A stretch of 64,000 bases of DNA, taken from contig CM067306.1 of NCBI GenBank assembly GCA_034231615.1, positions 62,021,475 through 62,085,474 of the forward strand. The letters run 5' to 3'. Position 1 is the stretch's first letter. Each line of letters begins with the position of its first letter. The position numbers were made by a program, and so were the translations under genes. The stretch comes from Meghimatium bilineatum (taxonomy: Eukaryota > Mollusca > Gastropoda > Stylommatophora > Philomycidae). Positions 26,401 to 53,000 of this stretch are shown here, piece after piece. A model generated the notes under the pieces. It saw only the letters and a program-made list of their open reading frames with translations, did no database searches and was not told where the DNA came from.

Positions 26401-29004
26401 TCTAGCTTTTTCTCTAGGATTGTGTTCTTGTAGTGTAGCAATTAGTATAATATTCATAGTACCTGGGTAGAGGAGAAAGGGCAGACCAAGAAGATGATGG
26501 ACTGACAACATTAAAGATAACATGAATACATCGCTAGAAAATGCAAGCCACATTGCCCAAGATGTTTAGAGAGTTAATTGGGAAAACAACGTTTCGGAAG
26601 GAATACTTCACATGACCATGACCATTATTAATCATAAATATGCCCGAAAAATCAGGGAAAATATAAATAAAAATAATATCTGTAAACTTATAAAATTGAC
26701 TGTCACCAGAACACATAAAAAAATCATGCTGAAAGCAATGTAGAGTTATTTCACTTTTGATCGGAAGCATTCGGTTTCACTTTCGCTTTCGGTTGATATG
26801 AATATAAAAATTGACAAACAAAATAACAAAGGTTTGTGTCTTTTTAAATATCTTGCTTAGGTTAACATGGCCACCATAAGTTGAATAAAAGTTGTTCCAG
26901 TGTCAATGAGTCAAATTTGACTATGAACCTCATTGTTTTCTTCAGGCAAATCTTACTGTCAGTCGTAACCCACAAGGAATTCCTGCCATGGAGGAATATT
27001 TTAATGATGGTGTTCACACCGACATCGTTGTAAGTGTCCGCTATATTTAAATCAAGTCAAATGTGATTAGTTTATAACGATTCAACTATATAGTCATATG
27101 TATTATACCCACATATTGATGCATCTGACTTCGAGACACTGAGTACCCTTACACCAAGATAATGACCTTCAATATTTAGTTTTACTATTTTGTAGTTAGA
27201 TTATCTAGTAACAATATCACATTAATAGAGTATTTATCACCCTCGATTGGGTCAAAGGGCATGAGATCATGGACCACTGGATCAGCAACCAACCAACCAA
27301 CCATCACCCTCGATATGCATGTAGAAAATGTTAAACACAAAGCACTGACACAGTTACAGCTACTGATGAGGTTCACTGACAATTCTTGGGGATCAGAGGC
27401 CCCTTTTCTCAGGAACCTGTATCTTGGGTTCATATACATTCTGCTTTAACATACAGTAGACCATAACTGACAGCATTCTCAGAAACAAATATTAAGTCCC
27501 CGGACATGGTGCAGAAGAATGCTCTATGCCATATTAGTGGGGCAGTGAGATCTAACACCAATCAATCAATCAATAAACCCATAACCCTTCAGGGTTGTAG
27601 GAGTACCACATTGGATGCTTCAGCACACAGAGTCCTCCAGCGAAATCTATCCTCAGCGATGCGGATGAGTGTGGAAATATCTTGCCCTGTGCATTCCTTG
27701 ATGTTGTCTGTCCATGTCTTTATTTGTCCTCCTCTGCTTCTTCCACCCCTAACACCAATGGCTACATGTGAAATACACGCAAATGTAGAACTACTTGAGC
27801 TATGATAAGAACTGGCTGCAATGGAAGTTTATGAGAGAAGCAAAAGAATGAGCAAAGATTGCCCGATTAAACAGCGTGTACAAAACTGACAACTAAAACA
27901 AAGAATAAAGCAAAAGTCAGTCCTTAGCCTTCTCAATGAAATCAAAGATAGCTACCACCTCTCCTTTTCTCTTTTACTGGATATGCGTGTCGCAACCGGT
28001 ACTAGGTAATGTTTCTTTTTAATGGAAAAATTCCCTAGTCAACTCAGTTATCAATTCTGTGTGGTTTCATTTATTTTGAACATTTTTAGTTTCTTAAAAA
28101 AGGTCCCGTTTGAACAGATACATGGAAAATTGTCCTTTTTTGTTTTATTGTGTGTTTTTATATACTTTTTAAAATTTATTTTTATTTATAGTTAGGTTTT
28201 TATATTAGCCTATTTAACTTATTTTGCATTACCACCTCCAAGACATAAGACAAGAACTGAAAAGAGTGGAAAAATAGCTTTAGATTGTGGTGGAAATTGT
28301 AAGCCTAAACTAGTTCAAATGTATCACTTTTCCAATAAGATACATCTCATGAAGTCAATAAACTAGACAAACAAACTAGCAAAGAAAGGAAAAAGACAAT
28401 TAAAGCAATAAACACTAATAACCAAGCACACAGTTAAATAAATGTTGAAATCTGTAATCTGTCAGCAAAGAAACTTGGCTGAACAGATGGGTTATGGGAA
28501 ACAATGGGAGAAAAATCTACAAATATATGACCAGCCCAAATCTCAAAGACAACATCAACTTTCTTTTGAAAGAAAGACCAGAATATCATTTTTCTATGCA
28601 GCCATCTTTCTGTAGAACACCATATTTCTGCAGAACACCATCTTTCTGCAGAACACCATCTTTCTGCATGTACAGTTTATTAATCACCTGAACAGAATAC
28701 AATCAGATGCACTCCAGGATGGTGGCTGTGCATTTATCCTTAAAACTGCTGACAATCACATGATGGCTTTTTAATGGCCAGTGCTGGATGATAATAAAAG
28801 AAAATCATCTTTTTCCAAGGTCTAATAAATAAGTGAAACACTCTATCTTGAACAAAAATACAGCTCACAAACACATACCGGTACATATATCAGAAAACTT
28901 CATTGGGTCAAAGAACATTCACTGCTGGATCAGCAACCTTCTTTCATATAAAACATATTCTATCACATAATCACATAAGCAGACATATCACTTGTATCAA
29001 ACAT

Positions 29005-29048
<44 letters not shown>

Positions 29049-32000
29049 TATCACTTGTATCATACATGTTCTGTCACAAATACTAATACGTCAAATGTGC
29101 TCTATCACACAAACTAATATATCAAGTGTATCAAACATGTTCTGTCACAAATACTAATACGTCAAACGTGTTCTATCATATAAATACTAATACGTCAAAT
29201 GTGTTCTATCACACAAACTGATATATCAAGTGTATCAAACATGTTCTGTCATAAATACTAATACGTCAAATGTGTTCTGTCATACAAATACTAATGTCAA
29301 ATGTGTTTTATCATTCAAATACTAATACGTCACATGTATTCTATCATACAAATACTAATACGTCAAATGTGTTCTATCATACAAATACTAATATGTCAAA
29401 TGTGTTCTATCATACAAATACTAATACGTCAAATGTGTTCTATCATACAAATACTAATATGTCAAATGTGTTCTATCATACAAATTAAGAAAAATATCAT
29501 ACTTCTTTCTTTTTCTAGAATACCCTGCCCCATGTTAGCTTGGATGTTCATATTCTGGACTTTGGAAATGTTCAAAATTTGAATATTCCGCAGGAGAGGG
29601 TAAGTAACTCAATGCCCCCATGAACAGTGTAAACAATACAATGTTCTATAGAAGAATGTAACACAATGTTTCTCAGAAGAGAGTGAAAATATTCATCAGG
29701 AGAGAGTACGTAACACAATGTCCCCCAGAAGTAAGTAAATGATACAGTGTTCCCTGTCTGGCACTGTGTGGTGGTTGGGTACAGGCTGAACTTTTAATGA
29801 CTGGGGTACCGAGTTTAAATCTCACTGCTTATAATGTACTCCTGGACCGTATAGAAAGCAAATTGGCAAACTACTGAAACTCACTACAAACAAAAAATGC
29901 TGGATTGATGGCTAAATCTTTAATAGTATATGCTAACTACAAGAGGGTGATGCAGTTTTCCCTAGAGAAGAGTGGCACAAAGTTCCACAGGGAAGAGTAA
30001 TACAAAGTTCCCTAGAGAAGAGTGGAACAATGTTCCCCAGGAAATAGTGGCACAATCTTCCCCAGGGAAGAGTAACACAATGTTAGTCAGGGAAGAGTAA
30101 CACAATGTTAGTCAGGGAAGAGTAACACAATGTTAGTCAGGGAAGAGTAACACAATGTTATTCAGGGAAGAGTAACACAATGTTCCCTAGAGAAGAGTGG
30201 AACAATGTTCCCTAGAGAAGAGTAACACAATGTTAGTCAGGGAAGAGTAACACAATGTTATTCAGGGAAGAGTAACACAATGTTCCCTAGAGAAGAGTGG
30301 CACAATGTTCCCTAGAGAAGAGTGGCACAATGTTCCTTACAGAAGAGTAACACAATGTTCCTTACAGAAGAGTAACACAATGTTCCCTAGAGAAGAGTAA
30401 CACAATGTTCCTTACAGAAGAGTAACACAATGTTCCTTACAGAAGAGTAACACAATGTTCCTTACAGAAGAGTAACACAATGTTCCTTACAGAAGAGTAA
30501 CACAATGTTCCTTACAGAAGAGTAACACAATGTTCCTTACAGAAGAGTAACACAATGTTCCTTACAGAAGAGTAACACAATGTTCCCTAGAGAAGAGTGG
30601 CACAATGTTCCTTACAGAAGAGTAACACAATGTTCCTTACAGAAGAGTAACACAATGCTCCCTAGAGAAGAGTGGCACAATGTTCCTTACAGAAGAGTAA
30701 CACAATGTTCCTTACAGAAGAGTAACACAATGTTCCTTACAGAAGAGTAACACAATGTTCCTTACAGAAGAGTAACACAATGTTCCTTACAGAAGAGTGG
30801 CACAATGTTCCTTACAGAAGAGTAACACAATGTTCCTTACAGAAGAGTGGCACAATGTTCCTTACAGAAGAGTAACACAATGTTCCTTACAGAAGAGTAA
30901 CACAATGTTCCTTACAGAAGAGTAACACAATGTTCCTTACAGAAGAGTAACACAATGTTCCTTACAGAAGAGTAACACAATGCTCCCTAGAGAAGAGTGG
31001 CACAATGTTCCTTACAGAAGAGTAACACAATGTTCCTTACAGAAGAGTAACACAATGTTCCTTACAGAAGAGTAACACAATGTTCCTTACAGAAGAGTGG
31101 CACAATGTTCCTTACAGAAGAGTGGCACAATGTTCCTTACAGAAGAGTAACACAATGTTCCTTACAGAAGAGTGGCACAATGTTCCTTACAGAAGAGTAA
31201 CACAATGTTCCTTACAGAAGAGTAACACAATGTTCCTTACAGAAGAGTAACACAATGCTCCCTAGAGAAGAGTGGCACAATGTTCCTTACAGAAGAGTAA
31301 CACAATGTTCCTTACAGAAGAGTGGCACAATGTTCCTTACAGAAGAGTAACACAATGTTCCTTACAGAAGAGTAACACAATGTTCCTTACAGAAGAGTAA
31401 CACAATGTTCCTTACAGAAGAGTAACACAATGTTCCTTACAGAAGAGTAACACAATGTTCCTTACAGAAGAGTGGCACAATGTTCCTTACAGAAGAGTAA
31501 CACAATGTTCCTTACAGAAGAGTAACACAATGTTCCTTACAGAAGAGTAACACAATGTTCCTTACAGAAGAGTAACACAATGTTCCTTACAGAAGAGTAA
31601 CACAATGTTCCTTACAGAAGAGTGGCACAATGTTCCTTACAGAAGAGTAACACAATGTTCCTTACAGAAGAGTGGCACAATGTTCCTTACAGAAGAGTAA
31701 CACAATGTTCCTTACAGAAGAGTAACACAATGTTCCTTACAGAAGAGTAACACAATGTTCCTTACAGAAGAGTAACACAATGTTCCTTACAGAAGAGTAA
31801 CACAATGTTCCCTAGAGAAGAGTGGCACAATGTTCCTTACAGAAGAGTAACACAATGTTCCTTACAGAAGAGTGGCACAATGTTCCTTACAGAAGAGTAA
31901 CACAATGTTCCTTACAGAAGAGTAACACAATGTTCCTTACAGAAGAGTAACACAATGTTCCTTACAGAAGAGTAACACAATGTTCCTTAGAGAAGAGTGG

Positions 32001-35000
32001 CACAATGTTCCTTACAGAAGAGTAACACAATGTTCCTTACAGAAGAGTAACACAATGTTCCTTACAGAAGAGTAACACAATGTTCCTTACAGAAGAGTAA
32101 CACAATGTTCCTTACAGAAGAGTAACACAATGTTCCTTACAGAAGAGTGGCACAATGTTCCTTACAGAAGAGTAACACAATGTTCCTTACAGAAGAGTGG
32201 CACAATGTTCCTTACAGAAGAGTAACACAATGTTCCTTACAGAAGAGTAACACAATGTTCCTTACAGAAGAGTAACACAATGTTCCTTACAGAAGAGTAA
32301 CAGAATGTTCCCTAGAGAAGAGTGGCACAATGTTCCTTACAGAAGAGTAACACAATGCTCCCTAGAGAAGAGTGGCACAATGTTCCTTACAGAAGAGTAA
32401 CACAATGTTCCTTACAGAAGAGTGGCACAATGTTCCTTACAGAAGAGTAACACAATGTTCCTTACAGAAGAGTAACACAATGTTCCTTACAGAAGAGTAA
32501 CACAATGTTCCTTACAGAAGAGTAACACAATGTTCCTTACAGAAGAGTAACACAATGTTCCTTACAGAAGAGTGGCACAATGTTCCTTACAGAAGAGTAA
32601 CACAATGTTCCTTACAGAAGAGTAACACAATGTTCCTTACAGAAGAGTAACACAATGTTCCTTACAGAAGAGTAACACAATGTTCCTTACAGAAGAGTAA
32701 CACAATGTTCCTTACAGAAGAGTAACACAATGTTCCCTAGAGAAGAGTGGCACAATGTTCCTTACAGAAGAGTGGCACAATGTTCCTTACAGAAGAGTAA
32801 CACAATGTTCCTTACAGAAGAGTGGCACAATGTTCCTTACAGAAGAGTAACACAATGTTCCTTACAGAAGAGTAACACAATGTTCCTTACAGAAGAGTAA
32901 CACAATGTTCCTTACAGAAGAGTAACACAATGTTCCTTACAGAAGAGTAACACAATGCTCCCTAGAGAAGAGTAACACAATGTTCCCTAGAGAAGAGTAA
33001 CACAATGTTCCCTAGAGAAGAGTAACACAATGTTCCTTACAGAAGAGTAACACAATGTTCCTTACAGAAGAGTAACACAATGTTCCTTACAGAAGAGTGG
33101 CACAATGTTCCTTACAGAAGAGTGGCACAATGTTCCCTAGAGAAGAGTAACACAATGTTCGTTACAGAAGAGTGGCACAATGTTCCTTACAGAAGAGTGG
33201 CACAATGTTCCTTACAGAAGAGTAACACAATGTTCCTTACAGAAGAGTGGCACAATGTTCCTTACAGAAGAGTAACACAATGTTCCTTACAGAAGAGTGG
33301 CACAATGTTCCTTACAGAAGAGTAACACAATGTTCCTTACAGAAGAGTGGCACAATGTTCCTTACAGAAGAGTAACACAATGTTCCTTACAGAAGAGTAA
33401 CACAATGTTCCTTACAGAAGAGTAACACAATGTTCCTTACAGAAGAGTAACACAATGTTCCTTACAGAAGAGTAACACAATGCTCCCTAGAGAAGAGTAA
33501 CACAATGTTCCCTAGAGAAGAGTAACACAATGTTCCCTAGAGAAGAGTAACACAATGTTCCTTACAGAAGAGTAACACAATGTTCCTTACAGAAGAGTAA
33601 CACAATGTTCCTTACAGAAGAGTGGCACAATGTTCCTTACAGAAGAGTGGCACAATGTTCCCTAGAGAAGAGTAACACAATGTTCGTTACAGAAGAGTGG
33701 CACAATGTTCCTTACAGAAGAGTGGCACAATGTTCCTTACAGAAGAGTAACACAATGTTCCTTACAGAAGAGTGGCACAATGTTCCTTACAGAAGAGTAA
33801 CACAATGTTCCTTACAGAAGAGTGGCACAATGTTCCTTACAGAAGAGTAACACAATGTTCCTTACAGAAGAGTGGCACAATGTTCCTTACAGAAGAGTGG
33901 CACAATGTTCCCTAGAGAAGAGTAACACAATGTTCCTTACAGAAGAGTGGCACAATGTTCCTTACAGAAGAGTGGCACAATGTTCCTTACAGAAGAGTGG
34001 CACAATGTTCCCTAGAGAAAAGTAACACAATGTTCCTTACAGAAGAGTGGCACAATGTTCCTTACAGAAGAGTGGCACAATGTTCCTTACAGAAGAGTGG
34101 CACAATGTTCCTTACAGAAGAGTAACACAATGTTCCTTACAGAAGAGTAACACAATGTTCCCTAGAGAAGAGTAACACAATGTTCCTTACAGAAGAGTGG
34201 CACAATGTTCCTTACAGAAGAGTAACACAATGTTCCTTACAGAAGAGTAACACAATGTTCCTTACAGAAGAGTGGCACAATGTTCCTTACAGAAGAGTAA
34301 CACAATGTTCCTTACAGAAGAGTAACACAATGTTCCTTACAGAAGAGTAACACAATGTTCCTTACAGAAGAGTAACACAATGTTCCTTACAGAAGAGTGG
34401 CACAATGTTCCTTACAGAAGAGTAACACAATGTTCCTTACAGAAGAGTAACACAATGTTCCTTACAGAAGAGTAACACAATGTTCCTTACAGAAGAGTAA
34501 CACAATGTTCCTTACAGAAGAGTAACACAATGTTCCTTACAGAAGAGTGGCACAATGTTCCTTACAGAAGAGTAACACAATGTTCCTTACAGAAGAGTGG
34601 CACAATGTTCCTTACAGAAGAGTAACACAATGTTCCTTACAGAAGAGTAACACAATGTTCCTTACAGAAGAGTAACACAATGTTCCTTACAGAAGAGTAA
34701 CACAATGTTCCTTACAGAAGAGTAACACAATGTTCCCTAGAGAAGAGTGGCACAATGTTCCTTACAGAAGAGTAACACAATGTTCCTTACAGAAGAGTGG
34801 CACAATGTTCCTTACAGAAGAGTGGCACAATGTTCCTTACAGAAGAGTAACACAATGCTCCCTAGAGAAGAGTAACACAATGTTCCCTAGAGAAGAGTAA
34901 CACAATGTTCCCTAGAGAAGAGTAACACAATGTTCCTTACAGAAGAGTAACACAATGTTCCTTACAGAAGAGTAACACAATGTTCCTTACAGAAGAGTGG

Positions 35001-38000
35001 CACAATGTTCCTTACAGAAGAGTAACACAATGTTCCTTACAGAAGAGTAACACAATGTTCCCTAGAGAAGAGTAACACAATGTTCCTTACAGAAGAGTGG
35101 CACAATGTTCCTTACAGAAGAGTAACACAATGTTCCTTACAGAAGAGTAACACAATGTTCCTTACAGAAGAGTGGCACAATGTTCCTTACAGAAGAGTAA
35201 CACAATGTTCCTTACAGAAGAGTAACACAATGTTCCTTACAGAAGAGTAACACAATGTTCCTTACAGAAGAGTAACACAATGTTCCTTACAGAAGAGTGG
35301 CACAATGTTCCTTACAGAAGAGTAACACAATGTTCCTTACAGAAGAGTAACACAATGTTCCTTACAGAAGAGTAACACAATGTTCCTTACAGAAGAGTAA
35401 CACAATGTTCCTTACAGAAGAGTGGCACAATGTTCCTTACAGAAGAGTGGCACAATGTTCCTTACAGAGGAGTAACACAATGTTCCTTACAGAAGAGTAA
35501 CACAATGTTCCTTACAGAAGAGTAACACAATGTTCCTTACAGAAGAGTAACACAATGTTCCTTACAGAAGAGTAACACAATGTTCCTTACAGAAGAGTGG
35601 CACAATGTTCCTTACAGAAGAGTAACACAATGTTCCTTACAGAAGAGTAACACAATGTTCCTTACAGAAGAGTAACACAATGTTCCTTACAGAAGAGTAA
35701 CACAATGTTCCCTAGAGAAGAGTAACACAATGTTCCCTAGAGAAGAGTAACACAATGTTCCTTACAGAAGAGTAACACAATGTTCCTTACAGAAGAGTAA
35801 CACAATGTTCCCTAGAGAAGAGTGGCACAATGTTCCTTACAGAAGAGTAACACAATGTTCCTTACAGAAGAGTAACACAATGTTTCCTAGAGAAGAGTGG
35901 CACAATGTTCCTTACAGAAGAGTAACACAATGTTCCTTACAGAAGAGTGGCACAATGTTCCTTACAGAAGAGTGGCACAATGTTCCTTACAGAAGAGTGG
36001 CACAATGTTCCTTACAGAAGAGTAACACAATGTTCCTTACAGAAGAGTAACACAATGTTCCTTACAGAAGAGTGGCACAATGTTCCTTACAGAAGAGTAA
36101 CACAATGTTCCTTACAGAAGAGTGGCACAATGTTCCTTACAGAAGAGTAACACAATGTTCCTTACAGAAGAGTGGCACAATGTTCCTTACAGAAGAGTGG
36201 CACAATGTTCCCTAGAGAAGAGTGGCACAATGTTCCTTACAGAAGAGTGGCACAATGTTCCTTACAGAAGAGTAACACAATGTTCCCTAGAGAAGAGTAA
36301 CACAATGTTCCTTACAGAAGAGTAACACAATGTTCCCTAGAGAAGAGTAACACAATGTTCCCTAGAGAAGAGTAACACAATGTTCCTTACAGAAGAGTAA
36401 CACAATGTTCCCTAGAGAAGAGTAACACAATGTTCCCTAGAGAAGAGTAACACAATGTTCCCTAGAGAAGAGTAACACAATGTTCCTTACAGAAGAGTAA
36501 CACAATGTTCCCTAGAGAAGAGTAACACAATGTTCCCTAGAGAAGAGTAACACAATGTTCCTTACAGAAGAGTAACACAATGTTCCCTAGAGAAGAGTAA
36601 CACAATGTTCCCTAGAGAAGAGTAACACAATGTTCCCTAGAGAAGAGTAACACAATGTTCCTTACAGAAGAGTAACACAATGTTCTCTAGAGAAGAGTAA
36701 CACAATGTTTCCTAGAGAAGAGTAACACAATGTTCCTTACAGAAGAGTAACACAATGTTCCTTACAGAAGAGTAACACAATGTTCCCTAGAGAAGAGTAA
36801 CACAATGTTCCCTAGAGAAGAGTAACACAATGTTCCTTACAGAAGAGTAACACAATGTTCCCTAGAGAAGAGTAACACAATGTTCCCTAGAGAAGAGTAA
36901 CACAATGTTCCTTACAGAAGAGTAACACAATGTTCCTTACAGAAGAGTAACACAATGTTCCCTAGAGAAGAGTAACACAATGTTCCTTACAGAAGAGTGG
37001 CACAATGTTCCTTACAGAAGAGTAACACAATGTTCCTTACAGAAGAGTAACACAATGTTCCCTAGAGAAGAGTAACACAATGTTCCTTACAGAAGAGTAA
37101 CACAATGTTCCTTACAGAAGAGTAACACAATGTTCCCTAGAGAAGAGTAACACAATGTTCCTTACAGAAGAGTAACACAATGTTAGTCAGGGAAGAGTAA
37201 CACAATGTTAGTCAGGGAAGAGTAACACAATGTTAGTCAGGGAAGAGTAACACAATGTTATTCAGGGAAGAGTAACACAATGTTCCCTAGAGAAGAGTGG
37301 AACAATGTTCCCCAGGAAATAGTGGCACAATCTTCCCCAGGGAAGAGTAACACAAAGTTAGTCAGGGAAGAGTAACACAATGTTAGTCAGGGAAGAGTAA
37401 CACAATGTTAGTCAGGGAAGAGTAACACAATGTTATTCAGGGAAGAGTAACACAATGTTATTCAGGGAAGAGTAACACAATGTTCCCTAGAGAAGAGTGG
37501 CACAATGTTCCCTAGAGAAGAGTAACACAATGTTAGTCAGGGAAGAGTAACACAATGTTATTCAGGGAAGAGTAACACAATGTTCCCTAGAGAAGAGTGG
37601 CACAATGTTCCCTAGAGAAGAGTGGCACAATGTTCCCTAGAGAAGAGTGGCACAATGTTCCCTAGAGAAGAGTAACACAATGTTCCTTACAGAAGAGTAA
37701 CACAATGTTCCTTACAGAAGAGTAACACAATGTTCCCTAGAGAAGAGTGGCACAATGTTCCTTACAGAAGAGTGGCACAATGTTCCTTACAGAAGAGTGG
37801 CACAATGTTCCTTACAGAAGAGTAACACAATGTTCCTTACAGAAGAGTAACACAATGTTCCTTACAGAAGAGTAACACAATGTTCCTTACAGAAGAGTAA
37901 CACAATGTTCCTTACAGAAGAGTGGCACAATGTTCCTTACAGAAGAGTAACACAATGTTCCTTACAGAAGAGTAACACAATGTTCCTTACAGAAGAGTAA

Positions 38001-41000
38001 CACAATGTTCCTTACAGAAGAGTAACACAATGTTCCCTAGAGAAGAGTAACACAATGTTCCCTAGAGAAGAGTAACACAATGTTCCTTACAGAAGAGTAA
38101 CACAATGTTCCTTACAGAAGAGTAACACAATGTTCCCTAGAGAAGAGTGGCACAATGTTCCTTACAGAAGAGTAACACAATGTTCCTTACAGAAGAGTAA
38201 CACAATGTTCCCTAGAGAAGAGTGGCACAATGTTCCTTACAGAAGAGTAACACAATGTTCCTTACAGAAGAGTGGCACAATGTTCCTTACAGAAGAGTGG
38301 CACAATGTTCCTTACAGAAGAGTGGCACAATGTTCCTTACAGAAGAGTAACACAATGTTCCTTACAGAAGAGTAACACAATGTTCCTTACAGAAGAGTGG
38401 CACAATGTTCCTTACAGAAGAGTGGCACAATGTTCCTTACAGAAGAGTAACACAATGTTCCTTACAGAAGAGTGGCACAATGTTCCTTACAGAAGAGTGG
38501 CACAATGTTCCCTAGAGAAGAGTGGCACAATGTTCCTTACAGAAGAGTGGCACAATGTTCCTTACAGAAGAGTAACACAATGTTCCCTAGAGAAGAGTAA
38601 CACAATGTTCCTTACAGAAGAGTAACACAATGTTCCCTAGAGAAGAGTAACACAATGTTCCCTAGAGAAGAGTAACACAATGTTCCTTACAGAAGAGTAA
38701 CACAATGTTCCCTAGAGAAGAGTAACACAATGTTCCCTAGAGAAGAGTAACACAATGTTCCCTAGAGAAGAGTAACACAATGTTCCTTACAGAAGAGTAA
38801 CACAATGTTCCCTAGAGAAGAGTAACACAATGTTCCCTAGAGAAGAGTAACACAATGTTCCTTACAGAAGAGTAACACAATGTTCCCTAGAGAAGAGTAA
38901 CACAATGTTCCCTAGAGAAGAGTAACACAATGTTCCCTAGAGAAGAGTAACACAATGTTCCTTACAGAAGAGTAACACAATGTTCCCTAGAGAAGAGTAA
39001 CACAATGTTCCCTAGAGAAGAGTAACACAATGTTCCTTACAGAAGAGTAACACAATGTTCCTTACAGAAGAGTAACACAATGTTCCCTAGAGAAGAGTAA
39101 CACAATGTTCCCTAGAGAAGAGTAACACAATGTTCCTTACAGAAGAGTAACACAATGTTCCCTAGAGAAGAGTAACACAATGTTCCCTAGAGAAGAGTAA
39201 CACAATGTTCCTTACAGAAGAGTAACACAATGTTCCTTACAGAAGAGTAACACAATGTTCCCTAGAGAAGAGTAACACAATGTTCCTTACAGAAGAGTGG
39301 CACAATGTTCCTTACAGAAGAGTAACACAATGTTCCTTACAGAAGAGTAACACAATGTTCCCTAGAGAAGAGTAACACAATGTTCCTTACAGAAGAGTAA
39401 CACAATGTTCCTTACAGAAGAGTAACACAATGTTCCCTAGAGAAGAGTAACACAATGTTCCTTACAGAAGAGTAACACAATGTTAGTCAGGGAAGAGTAA
39501 CACAATGTTAGTCAGGGAAGAGTAACACAATGTTAGTCAGGGAAGAGTAACACAATGTTATTCAGGGAAGAGTAACACAATGTTCCCTAGAGAAGAGTGG
39601 AACAATGTTCCCCAGGAAATAGTGGCACAATCTTCCCCAGGGAAGAGTAACACAATGTTAGTCAGGGAAGAGTAACACAATGTTAGTCAGGGAAGAGTAA
39701 CACAATGTTAGTCAGGGAAGAGTAACACAATGTTATTCAGGGAAGAGTAACACAATGTTATTCAGGGAAGAGTAACACAATGTTCCCTAGAGAAGAGTGG
39801 CACAATGTTCCCTAGAGAAGAGTAACACAATGTTAGTCAGGGAAGAGTAACACAATGTTATTCAGGGAAGAGTAACACAATGTTCCCTAGAGAAGAGTGG
39901 CACAATGTTCCCTAGAGAAGAGTGGCACAATGTTCCCTAGAGAAGAGTGGCACAATGTTCCCTAGAGAAGAGTAACACAATGTTCCTTACAGAAGAGTAA
40001 CACAATGTTCCTTACAGAAGAGTAACACAATGTTCCCTAGAGAAGAGTGGCACAATGTTCCTTACAGAAGAGTGGCACAATGTTCCTTACAGAAGAGTGG
40101 CACAATGTTCCTTACAGAAGAGTAACACAATGTTCCTTACAGAAGAGTAACACAATGTTCCTTACAGAAGAGTAACACAATGTTCCCTAGAGAAGAGTAA
40201 CACAATGTTCCTTACAGAAGAGTAACACAATGTTCCTTACAGAAGAGTAACACAATGTTCCCTAGAGAAGAGTGGCACAATGTTCCTTACAGAAGAGTAA
40301 CACAATGTTCCTTACAGAAGAGTAACACAATGTTCCTTACAGAAGAGTAACACAATGTTCCTTACAGAAGAGTAACACAATGTTCCCTAGAGAAGAGTGG
40401 CACAATGTTCCTTACAGAAGAGTGGCACAATGTTCCTTACAGAAGAGTGGCACAATGTTCCTTACAGAAGAGTAACACAATGTTCCTTACAGAAGAGTAA
40501 CACAATGTTCCCTAGAGAAGAGTAACACAATGTTCCTTACAGAAGAGTAACACAATGTTCCTTACAGAAGAGTAACACAATGTTCCCTAGAGAAGAGTGG
40601 CACAATGTTCCTTACAGAAGAGTAACACAATGTTCCTTACAGAAGAGTAACACAATGTTCCTTACAGAAGAGTAACACAATGTTCCCTAGAGAAGAGTGG
40701 CACAATGTTCCTTACAGAAGAGTAACACAATGTTCCCTAGAGAAGAGTGGCACAATGTTCCTTACAGAAGAGTAACACAATGTTCCTTACAGAAGAGTGG
40801 CACAATGTTCCCTAGTGAAGAGTGGCACAATGTTCCTTACAGAAGAGTAACACAATGTTCCTTACAGAAGAGTGGCACAATGTTCCCTAGAGAAGAGTGG
40901 CACAATGTTCCTTACAGAAGAGTAACACAATGTTCCTTACAGAAGAGTGGCACAATGTTCCCTAGAGAAGAGTGGCACAATGTTCCTTACAGAAGAGTAA

Positions 41001-44000
41001 CACAATGTTCCCTAGAGAAGAGTGGCACAATGTTCCTTACAGAAGAGTAACACAATGTTCCTTACAGAAGAGTGGCACAATGTTCCCTAGAGAAGAGTGG
41101 CACAATGTTCCTTACAGAAGAGTAACACAATGTTCCTTACAGAAGAGTAACACAATGTTCCCTAGAGAAGAGTGGCACAATGTTCCTTACAGAAGAGTAA
41201 CACAATGTTCCCTAGAGAAGAGTGGCACAATGTTCCTTACAGAAGAGTAACACAATGTTCCCTAGAGAAGAGTGGCACAATGTTCCTTACAGAAGAGTAA
41301 CACAATGTTCCTTACAGAAGAGTAACACAATGTTCCCTAGAGAAGAGTGGCACAATGTTCCTTACAGAAGAGTAACACAATGTTCCCTAGAGAAGAGTAA
41401 CACAATGTTCCTTACAGAAGAGTAACACAATGTTCCTTACAGAAGAGTAACACAATGTTCCTTACAGAAGAGTAACACAATGCTCCCTAGAGAAGAGTGG
41501 CACAATGTTCCTTACAGAAGAGTAACACAATGTTCCTTACAGAAGAGTAACACAATGTTCCTTACAGAAGAGTAACACAATGTTCCTTACAGAAGAGTAA
41601 CACAATGTTCCTTACAGAAGAGTAACACAATGTTCCCTAGAGAAGAGTGGCACAATGTTCCTTACAGAAGAGTAACACAATGTTCCCTAGAGAAGAGTGG
41701 CACAATGTTCCTTACAGAAGAGTAACACAATGTTCCTTACAGAAGAGTAACACAATGTTCCCTAGAGAAGAGTGGCACAATGTTCCTTACAGAAGAGTAA
41801 CACAATGTTCCCTAGAGAAGAGTAACACAATGTTCCTTACAGAAGAGTAACACAATGTTCCTTACAGAAGAGTAACACAATGTTCCTTACAGAAGAGTAA
41901 CACAATGCTCCCTAGAGAAGAGTGGCACAATGTTCCTTACAGAAGAGTAACACAATGTTCCTTACAGAAGAGTAACACAATGTTCCTTACAGAAGAGTGG
42001 CACAATGTTCCTTACAGAAGAGTAACACAATGTTCCTTACAGAAGAGTAACACAATGTTCCTTACAGAAGAGTGGCACAATGTTCCTTACAGAAGAGTAA
42101 CACAATGTTCCTTACAGAAGAGTAACACAATGTTCCTTACAGAAGAGTAACACAATGTTCCCTAGAGAAGAGTAACACAATGTTCCCTAGAGAAGAGTAA
42201 CACAATGTTCCTTACAGAAGAGTAACACAATGTTCCTTACAGAAGAGTGGCACAATGTTCCTTACAGAAGAGTAACACAATGTTCCTTACAGAAGAGTGG
42301 CACAATGTTCCTTACAGAAGAGTAACACAATGTTCCTTACAGAAGAGTAACACAATGTTCCCTAGAGAAGAGTGGCACAATGTTCCTTACAGAAGAGTGG
42401 CACAATGTTCCTTACAGAAGAGTAACACAATGTTCCTTACAGAAGAGTAACACAATGTTCCCTAGAGAAGAGTAACACAATGTTCCCTAGAGAAGAGTAA
42501 CACAATGTTCCTTACAGAAGAGTAACACAATGTTCCTTACAGAAGAGTAACACAATGTTCCCTAGAGAAGAGTAACACAATGTTCCTTACAGAAGAGTGG
42601 CACAATGTTCCTTACAGAAGAGTAACACAATGTTCCTTACAGAAGAGTAACACAATGTTCCCTAGAGAAGAGTAACACAATGTTCCTTACAGAAGAGTAA
42701 CACAATGTTCCTTACAGAAGAGTAACACAATGTTCCCTAGAGAAGAGTAACACAATGTTCCTTACAGAAGAGTAACACAATGTTCCTTACAGAAGAGTAA
42801 CACAATGTTCCCTAGAGAAGAGTAACACAATGTTCCCAAGGGAAGAGTAACACAATGTTCCCTAGAGAAGAGTAACACAATGTTCCCTAGAGAAGAGTAA
42901 CACAATGTTCCCTAGAGAAGAGTAACACAATGTTCCCTAGAGAAGAGTAACACAATGTTCCCTAGAGAAGAGTAACACAATGTTCCCTAGAGAAGAGTTA
43001 CACAATGTTCCCTAGAGAAGAGTAACACAATGTTCCCTAGAGAAGAGTAACACAATGTTCCTTACAGAAGAGTGGCACAATGTTCCTTACAGAAGAGTAA
43101 CACAATGTTCCTTACAGAAGAGTGGCACAATGTTCCTTACAGAAGAGTAACACAATGTTCCTTACAGAAGAGTAACACAATGTTCCTTACAGAAGAGTGG
43201 CACAATGTTCCTTACAGAAGAGTAACACAATGTTCCTTACAGAAGAGTAACACAATGTTCCTTACAGAAGAGTGGCACAATGTTCCTTACAGAAGAGTAA
43301 CACAATGTTCCTTACAGAAGAGTAACACAATGTTCCCTAGAGAAGAGTAACACAATGTTCCTTACAGAAGAGTAACACAATGTTCCTTACAGAAGAGTAA
43401 CACAATGTTCCCTAGAGAAGAGTAACACAATGTTCCTTACAGAAGAGTAACACAATGTTCCTTACAGAAGAGTAACACAATGTTCCCTAGAGAAGAGTAA
43501 CACAATGTTCCTTACAGAAGAGTAACACAATGTTCCCTACAGAAGAGTAACACAATGTTCCCTACAGAAGAGTAACACAATGTTCCCTACAGAAGAGTGG
43601 CACAATGTTCCCTAGAGAAGAGTAACACAATGTTCCCTAGAGAAGAGTAACACAATGTTCCCTAGAGAAGAGTGGCACAATGTTCCCCCAGGATAAAGCA
43701 ATCCACTCCACCCATATGTTGCAGAGGTCTGATAAAGTACAGGAAAGAAGATTAACAACAGTGTGATCTTCCATACATGATGTAAGAAGTAACTGAGGAG
43801 GTTTGCAAGGGGGGTGGGGCTGTGGTAGACTGTCCCATCCCATTGTGGGACAAAGTGACCCAGAAGCGATGCTGATGTCAGATGTGTCTCGCAAATAGGT
43901 ACATATTGCACAATAAACTAAACCATGAAATAACCATTTCCATTTTCTAGTTTCGTTCAATAGTTGCTGAATTGGCATTGATGCACATAGACGCTTTGTT

Positions 44001-47000
44001 TCTCCTAGTACATGACTAAGAGTATGTGTGCTGATAATTCCTGTAACTCACTGGTTACACAGATCCCTTAACTGCGTCTTCATATACCCCATTCTGCAGG
44101 AGTGATCCCAAATTAATTTAGTCGAAATATCATTCCTTCTTCAAGTCTTGTGTTCTCATTTAGATAGTTCACCCTTATTTTGCTGGACCTGAAATGGAAA
44201 CAAAGAGTAGCACCACTGTAACCCTCCATGCATGTCATAAGATGTGAGTAATGAGGTTTCTCAGAGTATAATTGGTTGTCTCACCCCATAGAGAGTTAAA
44301 GTGATCCAAAACCATGCTGAAGTTGGATGTATCAGGCCAAAAGGTACAGATACCATAGCAAAGCTGTAAACAATAACACAATGCATTCTGTTCTCTGGAC
44401 TACTTCCTGCTAATTTACAGGAGTTTGAGAGTGAATGTAGAAGAAGAGGAGGATTTAGATAATACTCATCTTAATATAGTATTATTATGAATAAATAAAT
44501 AAACTAAATAAACAATTAGAAGACAGAATTGATGCCTTTGAGATGTGGGTATATAGAAGAATATGGAGAACATCATGGAAAGAGAAGAAAACAAATAAAG
44601 AGGTGCTAAAGATACTTAATATGAAGAAAGAACTACTAAGAGAAATAAAGATCAGGCAAATAATATACTTTGGACACATTAAAAGACATGACACCTTGTT
44701 GAAGACCTTACTTGAGGGTAAAGTCAAAGGGAAGCGAGCAAGAGGTAGGCAGAGATACAAGTGGGAGAGTAAAATTACACGATGGACAGGTTACAGTCTA
44801 GCAGAGTGCACCACCAAGACAAGAGACAGGAGATGTTGGAGATACGTTGCAGCCAACCTTCGTTGCGGAGACGGCACTTGATGATGATGATTATGAATAA
44901 TTGTTTTACCATTATTGATTCCTGTGAAGCCAAAATGTCTTCACTTTCATTACTGTAGACTCCTAACGAAGGTTGGCTGCAACGTATCTCCAACATCTCC
45001 TGTCTCTTGTCTTGGTGGTGCACTCTGCTAGACTGTAACCTGTCCATCGTGTAATGTTACTCTCCCACTTGTATCTCTGCCTACCTCTTGCTCGCTTCCC
45101 TTTGACTTTACCCTCAAGTAAGGTCTTCAATAGGGTGTCATGTCTTTTAATGTGTCCAAAGTATTTTATTTGCCTGATCTTTATTTCTCTTAGTAGTTCT
45201 TTCTTCATATTAAGTGTCCTTGAATGTAGTTTACAATAGGTAATAATTGCGGTAAAACTTTAATCTGACAGGCAAAACTTTTAAAAGTGTGATAAAGTTA
45301 TCTAAAGCTTTCCTTTTGCTAAAAATCACACTTGTCCAAGTTTACAACGTAATTCGCCCACTCAAAAACCACAAAATTTTGATCTGTCTGAGCGTGGATT
45401 GAGAGTCGTCACTACTACACCTCCCAATGTTCTTGTAACGGAAATATATTTTAGTGCCTTTATAGCTTCCTCAAGCGCATGGCCGTGGGGTTAGAACGCC
45501 ATTCTCAGACTCTTGAGGTCCTGGGTTCAATCCACAGTTGCGACAGGTTTTTTACTTTCGGAGGTGCAATCAAAATCCTTCCTGTACATGTCATGGCGTC
45601 TACTATGGCAAAGCGGCCTTTATTTCTACAGCCAATAGAAAGCCTCCCAGCACTCCTTCACATGAACACATGCAGTAAGGAATGTTTTTGTTTTATAGCT
45701 TCCTCAAACTCCATTTTCATTATCGAAGTTGTTGTCATGTAAGCTCCATTCTTGTCCACTACAATTCTATGTCCAGCTCTAGCGGAAAGCTCCACCTTGA
45801 CCTTCTACTTAACATCACAGAACTATCAGTTGTATGTCATGATGATGAGCTACTTCCTTAGCTGTGAGCAGGTAGCTCTTGACAACCTAGTCTTTCTGAC
45901 AAAAGCACAAGTTTTTCTTAGTTGTGTAACTGAGGGGCAACACCTGGACCCATACACGGTCACAAAGGCATGGTTGTGTAAGGGAAGTTTATAGATGCAT
46001 GTTTAGTCCCAGAGGGGAGACATTTCAGTGTGCCAGTATCCCACGATTACCATGTCCTGCCAGGAGCACAGCAAATTTTTTGGCCAATTATCTCATCATT
46101 CTTCTTTCAGATTTGTTGACCCATCCGCAGTGATGTCACATCTAGCATTCCCTGTGACCAAGGACTCAAAAAGACATTGGTTCAATACCTCTAGTCTGTA
46201 TCTCTTTATTATCCATGGGGATTATTTGATAGCAGACAAAGTATGAAATTGAGACAGGATATAACAGCGATTTTTTTTCACAATTGACAGGTTATTGGAC
46301 TATTCCCCCAACTTACCTTAATCATCTCCTATAACATGCCTGGAAAGAAGGCAATGTCTCTATTCTTTGCTTCATGAACTTAAAGTCCATGAACTTTAAG
46401 TTGCCACACTGGAGGTTTTTTTCTTAAGAATACAAAGAATGTATTGTATTGTCAAGATATTTCTGCATAACTCACCATTTTGATGCAACAGGAAGTCTAA
46501 TATGCAGAATCAGTGTTAAAGCATTTTATGTTTACTAGAGTCAAAACATTGTAAGCATTTAATCTTTATTAGAGATTAAACATGGAAAGCACTTAATCTT
46601 GGTTAGAGATGAAACATTGAAAGCACTTAATCTTGATTAGAGATGAAACATTAAAATCACTTAATCTTTATGAGAGATTAAACACGGAAAGCACTTAATC
46701 TTGGTTAGAGATGAAACATTGAAAGCACTTAATCTTGGTTAGAGATGAAACATTGACAGCACTTAATCTTGGTTAGAGATGAAACATTGAAATCACTTAA
46801 TCTTTATCAGAGATTAAACATGGAAAGCACTTAATCTTGGTTAGAGATGAAACATTTAAAGCACTTAATCTTGATTAGATGTGACACATTTAAATACCAA
46901 ATCTTTATTAGAGATGATACATTGAAAGCACCTAATCTTCATTAGAGATGACACTGAACACATTTAGTCTTTGTTAGAGACGACACTGAAAGTGCTTTTA

Positions 47001-50000
47001 CATATTTGCAATTTCAGACAGTCAACATTACCAACCACACTAGAGGGAAGGTAACTGTTCAGTGGATGGGAGGTAAGCTGATAAAATTATCTGCAGTTGA
47101 TGATACAAGTTCCTGTTTAACATGAAAACACAGTTAATGAAAAACAATGAAACAAATAAATTATAGCAAAAATTTAAAGCAGACACTCAAGATTTTTAGA
47201 TCATGTGAGGAGAAGAACAAAATTTGAACATATAATAACAATTGGATCAATAAAAAAAGGCAGAGAAAGACAAAGAGAGAAGTTGCTGAATGGGTTATCA
47301 TCAAGGCATGGAACAATGGCAACAACAGAACTTATTAACAATTGTGCCGGCTGTGAACTCATCCTTGTGAAACTATTGACCACCACCCTTTTCAATGTTG
47401 AGCTCCTGATGATGTCAGAAAAATTGGCTTCTCCCTCAAGTGCCAGCTAAATAGAACAGGCGAAACTTGGAACAAGCGAAACTTGGAACAGGCAAAACTT
47501 GGAACAGGCGAAACTTGGAAAATGGTGAAACTTGGAACAGGCAAAACTTGGAAAATGGTGAAACTTGGAACAGGCAAAACTTGGAACAGGCAAAACTTGG
47601 AACAGGCAAAACTTGGAACAGGCGAAACTTGGAACAGGTGAAACTTGGAACAGGCAAAACTTGGAAAATGGTGAAACTTGGAACAGGCAAAACTTGGAAC
47701 AGGCGAAACTTGGAACAGTGTGAAACTTGGAACAGGCGAAACTTGGAACAGGTAATGGAGTTTTGCTAATCACTGGAAAGATGCATAAAAACACACGCAC
47801 ATCAACGTTTCAACCAAAAGGCTATTTTGTTTTTAATGCGTTCTTTATGAAACATTTAGGAATGTGCTGTTTATCATACACTATTGACGTTCACGTTTCA
47901 TGGCACAGCAAAATTTGATATTTATAGTGCTGTTCTCACTCGTCATCTTTTGTTGTGAATGTGTTCACGATAAAGGCCTTTTAGCTGAAACATCAATTTG
48001 TGTATTGTTATGTGTGTTTCAAGTGATTAGAAAAACTTTATTACCCTGTTCCAAGTTTTGCCTGTTGGATTTCAGTTTTACTGCAGTGAGAACATAGTAT
48101 CTAAATGGTCTACCCTGTATGAATTCTTGAATAGAAACTGGCTTCACAGCACATGGGGCATTCCCATAAGTTCTCCGTCCTCCGTTCCAGCAGCCATCTA
48201 AGTGTATGTAGACTCAAAGTCCTGGTCATGTGTTGATTGTGTGATCTTTGGGCCTTCCAAAAAAATTACTTTTCCTTCCCTCCCCTGATGCTCCCAAAAT
48301 AAAAAAAAACCAAACACATGCAAATAACACACAATGGCATTGAGTACAAGGCATACAAACCCAGGAACTGCAGGATAACTAACCAACCAACCAACCAACT
48401 TGTTAACAACACAAGAGACAGATAGTTGTGGAGAAACACGATCACCTATGCCACTAATTATGGTATTTGTGTGATTGAATTGTATGTAGAGATTGCTTTA
48501 TATCTAAGATACACGTACTAGTAGGACCATTGTCCTTTTAAAATAGAGATCCAGCAGAAGTATGAGAACAAACATATGGAAAACTGCTGTTTATAAGTTC
48601 ATATTATCATAATATCTTACTGGCCTAATGTCCCTCCACTCCTATACACTCTTCCACAGACTCTAGCCACGTTTTTTATATGAATCCGACGTCATTGGAT
48701 ATCCCTCCACTGAAGTCCTGCTCATTTAGAGTTACATTCAAGGCAGTAAGCGTCTTTATTTACATGCATATTCCATATATCTTTGTCTGTTTGTATACTT
48801 ATACAGATTTATCTGTTTTTCTCCCTGTATGTTGCCTTATCTTTGTATGCTGCCCTAACGTTTTTTGTCTCTCTGTATGTTATCTATCTGTCTGTCTCTC
48901 CACATGTTGCCTATGTCTGTCTATCTCTCTGTATGTTGTCTATATCTTTGTAAGTATTTTTCTGTTTAAATATTTTTCTGACTGCATGAGTATTTTTTCT
49001 CATTGTCTGACTTTGCTTGTTATCTTTGATTGTCTACATTTATGCATTTTAGTTTATGTTTTTATGTTTGCTTGTTGTTGGGTGGTTAAATAATTGCCAG
49101 TGTTTGAGTAGATGTAGTAAGGTGCTTCAAATGAAAACCTTAAAATTGTGGGAAAATAGAATAACCATAATGTTGTCTTGTAAACTGTCACAGTATTATT
49201 AAGGATGAGTCAAGAGCATCCTGCACTTGCTATCATGGTGCAGACAAACATTGTGATGCCATAAGTGTGAAGATGGCCGCCTACTACTGGCACATATAAG
49301 AGAACTATAATTCATTTTCTTTAATCAGTCAGATGGTGAAACTTTTATAAGTCATTGGTGAATGAAGGTCCAATATGGTGATGTACCGGTATGTCTGTCA
49401 ATCCAGCAAGTGTATTAATACAGAATGATACACTTGCTAGGTTGACAGATATGCATCGCAATACTGAACCTTCATTCGTACACTTGCCAGATTGGATACT
49501 TAGTACATACACAAAGAGTGTAACTGATAAAAAAATAGATAACAGAACATTGCTTCTTTTTGGTATCCAATTTTTTCTGTATTTGTTTTTTGTCAGATTT
49601 TTAAATCATAATGCCAAAGGTTTTTATTCTTATTTATTTTATTATTGATAATTAGTTAGTTAGTCATTGGATCTTCGTGACCACACTTCAGACAAGTCCA
49701 TAGGTGCTCAGATCTCTCCTTGAGTGTATCCGCCATTACACGTTGACTGACGGTCCCAGTATGGCGTTGATTGATCATCATTCTTTCTTGCCCATGAAAC
49801 CACTCCTTTCTAACGACACAACATTTCAAACTAAGCTCCCTTATTCTAGTCATGGAACAAGAGTTATTGTCACTTATACAGTTATTTGTTAGTGTGTTTT
49901 TCCGTAGGGCGTTCAAAATGTCTGCCCGATCCATCGCTCCGTCAACAGCCATAGCATCCCAGAGTGCAGCCAATGTATCTGCTCTCTCATTACCCCGGAC

Positions 50001-53000
50001 TCCCGCATGTCCCGGTACAAAAATAAAAGTCACTTTATGCACACAGAAATTCTTCACTGCATCCAGTCACTGTTCTCGAATGTACCCCGCTTGCACTTTC
50101 ACAATCATGCTCATCAAGTCACCGAGTATACAGACATGTGTCGCAGTCTGCGAGCGCACCCATTTCAAAGCTTTGGTTACTGCCACAATCATGCTCATCG
50201 AGTCATCGAGTATACAGTCATGTTTAACATTTTATTATCAATGTTTTTATCATATTTTTATCAGTAGTGGTAAATATTTGTGACACAGATTTACTTGCCG
50301 TATTTGTTATTGTTACTTTCGTATTTGTGTTACTACGACCCATATATGACTGTTGTATTTTCTCTGATGTTTTTTGGGTTATTATATATTTCTGATGTTA
50401 ACCATTGTGTGTTTTCTAGTGTTTAAAGATAAATATTCCTGGAGGGGAGTCGTAGTTTAGACATCAATCGTGCTGTCATGATGTTCGCTAGACTCGAACA
50501 AGAAAACGACCGGTATAAGTGGTAGCTTTAGGGACCAAACCCGAAATAAAGGAATGACGAAAACGGATGTGCTGGACCTCGGACGTCCTGACCACAAGTG
50601 GCCAACGGGGGTGCAAATAATCACAGTTTTACTGTGGAACTTGCAGCACAATGTACTTCACGCTCCCTGGTGAAAATCACACGAAATATTTGTTGTGGTT
50701 ATTTGAGAGCGAATGCTGAAGAAGAAGGAAGAAGAGTGGTAGCTTTGCAACTGGACAGGGCGGGGCACCCATTTGTCCCGACATAAAGTATTGTCAAAGG
50801 TAGTGGATATAAATGGATATCCCCATATGGATGTGGAAAGCAAAGGGAAACTATCACATTATTCTCCCAAGATGAAAGTCATGGCGACACTTCTTTTTTT
50901 GGCCAAACATTAGATAGACAGGTTTGGAGAGCAGTAACAACAGGCAAAATTGAAGGCAACAGAGACAGAGGGCAAAAATGTGAGAAAATATTAGATAGTT
51001 TGACAACCTGACACGGCAGGGAAACAACAATGATCTTGATACATAATACTGAGGACAGAGAGCTGTGGAGAGCCTTGACCGCCTACGCCAACAGGCATAG
51101 CACCTGATGATGATGTTAACCATGCTGATCCTGTCGTGTGCTGCTGATATTAATTAGCCTTTGTGTTGTAATGGCAGAATATTTTTTGTGTTGTAATGGC
51201 AGAATATTTTTTGTGTTGTAATGGCAGAATATTTTTTGTGTTGTAATGGCAGAATATTTTTTGTGTTGTAATGGCAGAATATGTGTGGTGACTGAGGAGT
51301 TTTGATATCCATCTACTAATTTTATTATGACTCAAATGTTTTACTATACCAGGTTACACCCAACAAAATTTATGGGAATGAACTCGAGTGCTTTGCTTTC
51401 TACAAGTCATTGAGAGACTACAGGATGGTTCAGGACATCACTCATTGTCCTCCTTGGTGTTTGACTGTCAAGTGTCTGGGTAAGAGTTAGACAGAGCAAC
51501 AACTAGTAACATCCCTGATGTTGATCTATCCTTTATGTCTTCATGTGCTGACCTACTACTGGCACATATAAGAGAACTATAATTCATTTTCTTTAATCAG
51601 TCAGATGGTGAAACTTTTATAAGTCATTGGTGAATGAAGGTCCAATATGGTGATGTACCGGTATGTGTTTTGAATTAGCTTGGAAGAGGTGGTGCTTGTG
51701 GATATTTGTGACCTGACTAAATCATATAAGGTACTCTAGTTTATCACATTCAAGGTTGAATAAAGAAAACCACTTTCATTATATTTTCCTCTAAAGTAAA
51801 ATGCACCTCTTATGGTGGGGACCACTACTTTCAACCACAGACGTTAGTTAAATTTGATTATATCAGAGAATTACAACTGTAAAAATATTGGAGTCATGGT
51901 TCTGGTAGCCCAGTTATCAGGACCTACATCATCAGTAATTTTCTATCTATTGTTTCTTCTCAGCTTTTGTTGTAAGATGATCAGTTTTTGAACCATGGCA
52001 GGTTTGGTCATGTGATATGCAGTAATATTGTGACATCTCCAAATTTTGGTAACTCCTTCAACCCACCTTCTCCTTGGTCTTCCTCAGAATTTTGCTGTTT
52101 CCATTTTCATATTGTATGCTCTTGCTGCTGCCATTAAGGGTTCATTCTCATTAAGTTTTGGCTGAACCAGTTCAGTAATTTTTGGAGGTTCATTCTCATT
52201 AAGTTTTGGCTGAACAATTTCAGTAATTTTTGGAGGTTCATTCTCATTAAGTTTTGGCTGAACCTTTTCAGTAATTTTTGGAGGTTCATTCTCATTAAGT
52301 TTTGGCTGAATCATTTCAGTAATTTTTGGAGGTTCATTCTCATTAAGTTTTGGCTGAACAATTTCAGTAATTTTTGGAGGTTCATTCTCATTAAGTTTTG
52401 GCTGAATCATTTCAGTAATTTTTGGAGGATTTTTTTATAAGCAGTGAAAATAAAGGCTTTTTTGCTATAACAGTCCTCATGATGTGTGTAGGAAGAATTT
52501 TGCTACATTATGTATGAATAAATGTAGACTAGATGTAGCATTTTATAATTTCCATTGTTAGTTTGTTTGTGATTTGTTTCAATGTTAAGGAGTTTCCTCT
52601 TTAATTAGTCTGTACAACTTCCTGATTGTCTCCAATTATTTGTTGATGCTACCACAGGTCACACATTTATGCCAAACAATGACACCTTTGTACCACGAGC
52701 CGCTATTGAACCCAGACTCCTGGTGTTTCCAGCAGTCAATGCCGGTGAGAGCACATATCAGACTTTACTGGTGGGCAATGATGGTGATACGCCAATCTTG
52801 TATGACCTAACTCAAAGTTTCATTGACCATAAGAAAATCAAGCCAAAGTGTGGGACCACACCTCAAAAACAGTGAGAGATCATCTTCTTAGTAATTCTCC
52901 TACACATACTTCAATACATTCTCTTACATATACTCCAATACATTCTCCTACACATACTCCAATACATTCTCTTACATATACTCCAATACATTCTCCTACA

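Follow-up and report, generated by a model that had tools for sequence, protein, structure and literature searches.

A 25-bp satellite in intron 13 of Meghimatium bilineatum CFAP65, a probable expansion of a duplicated splice donor

A stretch of 64,000 nucleotides from the gastropod Meghimatium bilineatum (GCA_034231615.1, contig CM067306.1, positions 62,021,475 to 62,085,474 of the forward strand), referred to here as the window and used for all coordinates below, carries on its plus strand part of the gene CFAP65, whose intron 13 contains a long array of 25-bp units. Judged from the sequence, this array is probably a greatly expanded “mirage”, that is, a minisatellite that began with an exon-intron boundary being duplicated in tandem. 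The splice donor of exon 13 is well supported as the ancestor of the array, because the exonic and intronic halves of the donor region match the array unit separately, satellite sequence is present on both sides of the gap that parts donor and array, exon 13 has kept its length rather than being extended by satellite, and other junctions of the same gene behave alike.

The exon 13 donor and the satellite of intron 13

A sequence-only reading of this DNA had reported a second copy, at 29688-29720, of the 33 nt spanning the exon 13 donor (29582-29614), identical at 28 of 33 positions, and had proposed shuffled sequence as a check. The recurrence was reproduced, and shuffling gave no comparable similarity: the best of 1000 dinucleotide shuffles of the donor 33-mer, searched along the plus strand of the window, reached 24 of 33 and none reached 28. 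Position 29688 is the sole other plus-strand site in the window with at least 22 of 33 identities to this 33-mer, no site at 20 of 33 or above was found on the minus strand of the window, and the best match of the remaining exon-end windows (21 in all) did not exceed 21. The similarity extends past the 33 nt to about 29646 and 29753, respectively, with 52 of 66 columns identical, and the 33 nt therefore represent the best part of a longer duplication whose period is 106 bp (blocks A and B in Table 1). The 156 intronic bases of a degenerate “seed zone” scored 120 against a tandem 25-bp consensus, compared with a mean of 32.6 and a maximum of 62 for 300 shuffles; within this zone, one 25-bp array-like copy (29644-29668) precedes the best copy of the donor at 29688.

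Alignment of the 29-nt donor unit (Table 1) to the different types of array monomer gave a score of 15.4 with the best type, TTCCCCAGGGAAGAGTAACACAATG, which is located at 30058 and 39633. This score was reached by 0 of 3000 shuffles of the donor in which the splice consensus (positions -3 to +6) was kept fixed and by 0 of 3824 GT-anchored 29-mers taken from outside the region, and the other 20 exon ends scored at most 8.6. For the exonic 14 nt compared with the 5’ half of the unit, 0 of 5000 shuffles were as good; for the intronic 15 nt compared with the 3’ half, the corresponding figure was 10 of 5000, or 38 of 5000 when GTAAGT was held fixed. Likeness arising by chance or through the splice consensus was rejected on the 33-mer shuffles and the consensus-fixed 29-mer tests.

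The earlier estimate of about 550 tandem copies proved accurate, as the array can be split into 549 units, every one of 25 bp, followed by an end piece of 30 bp, this length being read from one assembled sequence in which assembly error is possible. It comprises 28 distinct strings (end piece included), the commonest of which, TTCCTTACAGAAGAGTAACACAATG, occurs 274 times. At the left edge, the first 10 units show 4-9 differences from the consensus; later bins of 25 units average 0.6 to 3.8 differences, and divergence at the right edge is low, with 0-4 differences across the last 19 full units. Blocks located 92 units apart (2300 bp) share identical monomer runs of 23, 24 and 21, which suggests that the array grew both unit by unit and in larger segments and, within this single sequence, gives a hint of array turnover. 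Outside intron 13, the plus strand of the window contains zero exact 12-mers of the consensus unit. The best likeness to the unit beyond this intron, at about 17101-17260, is weak and full of gaps.

The seed zone and the array are separated by sequence that shows no match to the 25-bp consensus (29760-29940; 162 of 300 shuffles as good). This sequence has a relative elsewhere in the window at 7254-7317 (76.6% over 64 columns, E-value 3.5e-8), next to a weaker related piece at 7192-7231 (E-value 0.40). The gap has satellite on both flanks, and its simplest and likely reading is that an interspersed repeat landed inside a satellite unit.

Splice signals within the units were scored with a matrix built from 19 other donors of CFAP65. 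Two forms of the unit obtained 1.66 and -3.07, compared with 8.6 for the real exon 13 donor and 4.2 to 12.6 for the 19 others. GTAAGT was not found in the 25-bp array, though its units contain GT and AG, and 36 of the 1107 GT sites in the array reach the level of the weakest real donor, corresponding to 2.62 such sites per kb (36 in 13.7 kb); the density in seven stretches outside arrays is 6.30 per kb. Acceptor-like AG sites are plentiful in the array: of 1808 AG sites, 740 score at least as high as the weakest real acceptor and 0 reach the median. Spreading may have been open only to units lacking a strong donor, an idea that these values fit and do not prove. Selection for donor loss was considered and is not claimed, since a random unit could give a low density and the array next to exon 5 contains 102 sites that equal or exceed the weakest real donor. 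Use of the decoy donor present in the seed zone at 29731 would result in an in-frame stop.

Gene model and other junctions of CFAP65

The CFAP65 model has 21 exons and consists of two joined pieces, one made up of exons 1-3 and the other of the 18 exons numbered from 5 to 23; once spliced, both pieces give an open frame with zero stops. The labels E1 to E23 are keyed to the number that the sequence-only reading had given to exon 13, and some numbers are skipped; exon 4 was not found between exons 3 and 5, and the gene model may be one exon short. At exon 18, the end as modelled lacks a following GT and this boundary is unsettled; it was kept among the 21 exon ends in the match and junction tests and excluded from the donor matrices. 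The 716-amino acid translation of the second piece matched PDB chain 9ijj_h (mouse CFAP65) with an E-value of 3.8e-132, and chain 7n61_1B (Chlamydomonas FAP65) with an E-value of 1.8e-73. Pfam families Ig_CFAP65_4th and 8th exceeded the cut-off, and the spliced exons encode CFAP65.

From the DFG of exon 13 through the TNHT/RNYT motif of exon 14, the alignment to both chains contains zero gaps, and the R that closes exon 13 is identical in Chlamydomonas. Lengthening of exon 13 by the satellite is ruled out by this gap-free alignment to two distant orthologues, which favours the exon-to-intron direction. Replacement of the exon end by satellite of the same length is possible.

Intron 13 has a length of 17,418 bp. 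For its second array, with a 34-bp unit (46544-46951), tests against the exon 14 junction were negative and no junction ancestry was shown. An alignment over 46544-47017 suggests that degenerate 34-bp copies continue past the end of this array. A tRNA gene sought at 29600-30100 was not found, and no Rfam family reached its gathering score anywhere in the window.

Similar copying was evaluated at all modelled junctions: for each of 21 exon ends and each of 21 exon starts, an exon-only query and a junction query were compared with up to 1500 bp of adjoining intron (84 tests). In six of these tests, representing five junctions (the donors of E2, E5 and E13 and the acceptors of E7 and E20), 0 of 400 shuffles were as good; this applied to both queries for E2, to the junction query for E5, E13 and E20, and to the exon-only query for E7. 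The exon-only test of the exon 13 donor gave 1 of 400, and the minimum among 21 exon-interior controls was 12 of 400. The clearest recurrence in the gene is found at exon 2, where the last 26 to 32 nt and the start of the donor are copied three times in the intron with identity dropping with distance (Table 1), and these copies may represent a small mirage at an early stage. The exon 20 acceptor (junction query 0 of 400, exon-only 8 of 400) ranked first among 42 junctions for the array that crosses it, and the exon 7 acceptor (exon-only 0 of 400, junction 1 of 400) scored 24 versus 22 for the next junction. At exon 5 the junction query gave 0 of 400 and the exon-only query 31 of 400; the donor ranked third and exonic sequence is not copied. 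Several frames of this 18-bp array are open, and intron retention would yield a long repeat protein of the CVSGSC type.

For the ranking of arrays against junctions, a set of 36 arrays was compiled by hand from the output of Tandem Repeats Finder (TRF), supplemented with the seed zone. Rows that were short, scored low or lay outside the interval from exon 1 to exon 23 were excluded, and arrays longer than 2500 bp were compared over their first 2500 bp. A flanking junction was the best of 42 for 8 of the 36 arrays, where 1.7 were expected (p 0.00024). Each of the 20 modelled introns (2438-61901; an exon may be hidden between exons 3 and 5) holds at least one array with a TRF score of at least 100. 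Such arrays (n=33) lie closer to exon edges than random (median 107 versus 286 bp, p 0.0004), also when counted within 100 bp of an exon edge (p 0.0014). The same local seeding probably took place at some other CFAP65 junctions.

Table 1 Coordinates of features in the window
Feature	Position	Strand	Description
Exon 2 donor and three intronic copies	5419-5550	+	Exon end 5444; 31/35, 29/36 and 27/36 identical
18-bp array	about 12216-14090	+	TRF 104.3 copies; begins at +4 of exon 5 donor (GTGAGTGG)
Array upstream of exon 7	16062-16582	+	Exon start 16562; 12 exact bases common with exon 7 start
CFAP65 exon 13	29519-29599	+	81 nt, in phase; end CAG GAG AGG followed by GTAAGT; donor GT at 29600
Block A	29582-29646	+	Duplication of period 106 bp, spans donor; 52/66 columns shared with block B
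Donor unit TTCCGCAGGAGAGG/GTAAGTAACTCAATG (exonic/intronic)	29586-29614	+	29 nt (14 exonic, 15 intronic); likeness to array monomer beyond splice consensus
Seed zone	29600-29755	+	Degenerate copies of 19-29 bp, from the donor up to the probable insertion; four copies listed
Block B	29688-29753	+	Copy of block A entirely within intron 13; first 33 nt are the 28/33 copy
Decoy donor GAA/GTAAGT, GAAGTAAGT	29731-29736	+	In seed zone; score 9.7, above 8.6 of real donor
Candidate 16-bp target-site duplication, left copy TGATACAGTGTTCCCT	29740-29755	+	Satellite-like sequence
Satellite-unrelated sequence	29756-29947	.	Probably inserted interspersed repeat; separates seed zone from array
Candidate target-site duplication, right copy TGATGCAGTTTTCCCT	29948-29963	+	14/16 identical to left copy
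25-bp array	29958-43686	+	TRF 549.2 copies; consensus TTCCTTACAGAAGAGTAACACAATG
Array blocks at lag of 92 units	36108-40182 (approximate)	+	Long identical monomer runs
Second intron 13 array	46544-46951	+	TRF; 34-bp unit; stops 66 bp short of exon 14
CFAP65 exon 14	47018-47072	+	Closes intron 13
Array crossing exon 20 acceptor into exon	54122-54961	+	Exon start 54934; 52/70 identical

Several further elements were seen in the window. Downstream of the 25-bp array, at 44600-45210, inspection of the reading frames by eye indicated an inverted repeat of a retroelement-like open frame, and an open frame at 49656-50066 on the minus strand resembles, likewise by eye, a fragment of an RNase H-type retroelement. 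The four-base repeats (ACCA)n and (CAAC)n at 58776-58905 and 63483-63608 give rise to PTNQ-type frames.

Proposed history of the array and competing explanations

The array could have formed through the following series of events. A short duplication would have placed the end of exon 13 together with its donor into the intron; the homology is present in the sequence and the order of events is our reconstruction. The exon-adjacent donor was presumably kept in use, as the conserved exon length indicates, leaving the copies intronic. A derivative shorter by 4 bp may then have arisen, readable as the loss of one GTAA from GTAAGTAAC to give 25 bp, by which the strong donor GTAAGT is replaced by the weak GTAACA; the aligner itself splits the four gap columns between the 29-bp and 25-bp forms as 1 and 3. 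Slippage and unequal exchange would have spread this 25-bp unit to the 549 near-identical units now present, and unrelated sequence, probably an interspersed repeat, would later have parted seed zone and array.

A number of observations weigh against this history. The last 33 exonic nt are only weakly significant when compared with the body consensus alone (8 of 300 shuffles as good), and it is consequently the edge-type monomers that carry the link between donor and array. The sequence-only reading had described a visible path in which the splice site grades into the satellite; descent from the donor stands as well supported, and the smooth gradient was tested and not found, given that, on average, the first 10 units come no closer to the donor (10.92) than units in the middle (11.56) and that the best copy (29688) is preceded by the array-like copy at 29644-29668. 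The exon-to-intron direction is based on the conserved exon length. Most random 25-mers would probably likewise lack a strong donor. Across the gene, 28 of the 36 arrays, including that of exon 5, show no junction ancestry; two of the eight junction-linked arrays are the exon 13 seed zone and the main array themselves, and two more are marginal (28602-28668, 19 versus 18; 55221-55485, 17 versus 16). The number of arrays at most 50 bp away from an exon does not reach significance (p 0.059 to 0.136 depending on score threshold). As regards the gap, the left copy of the candidate target-site duplication agrees with ordinary array units in as many as 13 of 16 positions, nearly equal to its 14 of 16 with the right copy, for which the best match to array units is 11 of 16. 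Some likeness between the flanks is expected because both are satellite, and the duplication is suggestive only.

We regard it as unlikely that the repeat was instead born within the intron, with a later duplication or conversion over the donor overwriting or shifting the exon end onto satellite. Such an origin would account for the array-like copies already included in the 106-bp-period block, for a best donor copy that is not the one nearest to the donor, and for an exon end that is not conserved residue by residue versus mouse. It is at odds with the gap-free alignment of exon 13 and the exon 14 junction to mouse and Chlamydomonas, with the final R shared with the latter, and with the exon 2 copies, which lose identity away from the exon (31/35, 29/36, 27/36).

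Arrival of a genome-wide 25-bp satellite from elsewhere in the genome is very improbable, as degenerate copies reach up to and across the donor and exact consensus 12-mers are confined, on the plus strand of the window, to intron 13; there was also no match in viral_contigs, a weak test for an animal satellite. Hardly any credence is left for the proposal that the array has an unrelated origin and that its likeness to the donor only reflects the splice consensus and A+G-rich composition. Donor and unit do have GTAA and AG-rich parts in common, and the whole of exon 13 is not significantly similar to the body consensus (54 of 300 shuffles as good), yet the donor score of 15.4 was matched neither in the consensus-fixed shuffles (0 of 3000) nor among GT-anchored sites (0 of 3824) nor by other exon ends (at most 8.6), and together with the 33-mer shuffles and the split-half tests these results bring the proposal close to refutation.

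Relation to known systems

A satellite with this kind of origin had been thought undescribed in the sequence-only reading, which is wrong. Tandem duplications of exon-intron boundaries are known in the lancelet as mirages (PMC3087553, PMC3902484). They occur in the globin genes BflGb6 and BflGb9, either boundary can be duplicated, splicing is apparently undisturbed, edge units escape homogenisation, and the duplications have been proposed as a path to new introns; the BflGb6 mirage has 6 and 3 units of 150-160 bp each in two haplotypes, and Adh3 units measure 10-72 bp (PMC3087553). PGBD5 is a further case, with TnC in the lancelet cited (PMC3902484). The CFAP65 copies resemble mirages in that tandem units cross an exon-intron boundary, sit in the adjoining intron and can derive from its 5’ or its 3’ boundary. 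AG/GT splice signals are found in many mirage units, and the CFAP65 unit has GT and AG, its donor forms being weak. In intron 13 the unit spans the boundary and its copies are tandem in the adjoining intron, interrupted by unrelated sequence; duplication of both kinds of boundary is seen gene-wide (donors of E2 and E13, acceptors of E20 and E7) and not in the 25-bp array itself. Unlike these lancelet mirages, the CFAP65 array repeats a 25-bp unit that lacks a strong donor 549 times, and one gene has several arrays of mirage-like character. No mirage of hundreds of units was found in the excerpts of open-licence literature searched, and scale, a unit without a strong donor, and recurrence within one gene appear to be what is new here.

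The Drosophila genes kl-3 and kl-5 encode Y-linked axonemal dyneins. Their gigantic, megabase-sized introns contain satellites, and CFAP65 is alike in having satellite arrays in the introns of a cilium or sperm gene; it differs in an intron of 17.4 kb and an apparently local origin, no junction-derived origin being apparent for kl-3 and kl-5 in the excerpted source (PMC6508621). In potato RdRp, intron gain through tandem genomic duplication has been described, and both cases link within-gene tandem duplication to intronic sequence and splice signals (PMC4974935). In contrast to the potato intron, that of CFAP65 gives no sign of being new, and the duplicated donor appears to have expanded within the intron. 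Satellites may also arise from tandem repeats of retrotransposons, and these similarly form long arrays from pre-existing sequence (PMC7004042), whereas the source in CFAP65 would be a host splice junction and not a mobile element.

No function of the array beyond lengthening of the intron is supported. Tentatively, and with somewhat more doubt than confidence, splice junctions may be viewed as recurrent nurseries of satellites, in which a mirage can reach kilobase scale once the strong donor has been lost (GTAAGTAAC to GTAAC, 4 bp), and of which exon 2, with three copies, and exon 13, with 549 disarmed ones, would be stages. Many satellites have no traceable ancestor. Here the likely ancestor, intermediate copies and a large array are all present within one intron, and the ancestor would be a functional splice site of an exon that the gene retains. 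The CFAP65 array may accordingly link the small mirages of the lancelet to long intronic satellites, and suggests a condition for growth, namely that the copies must cease being competing donors.

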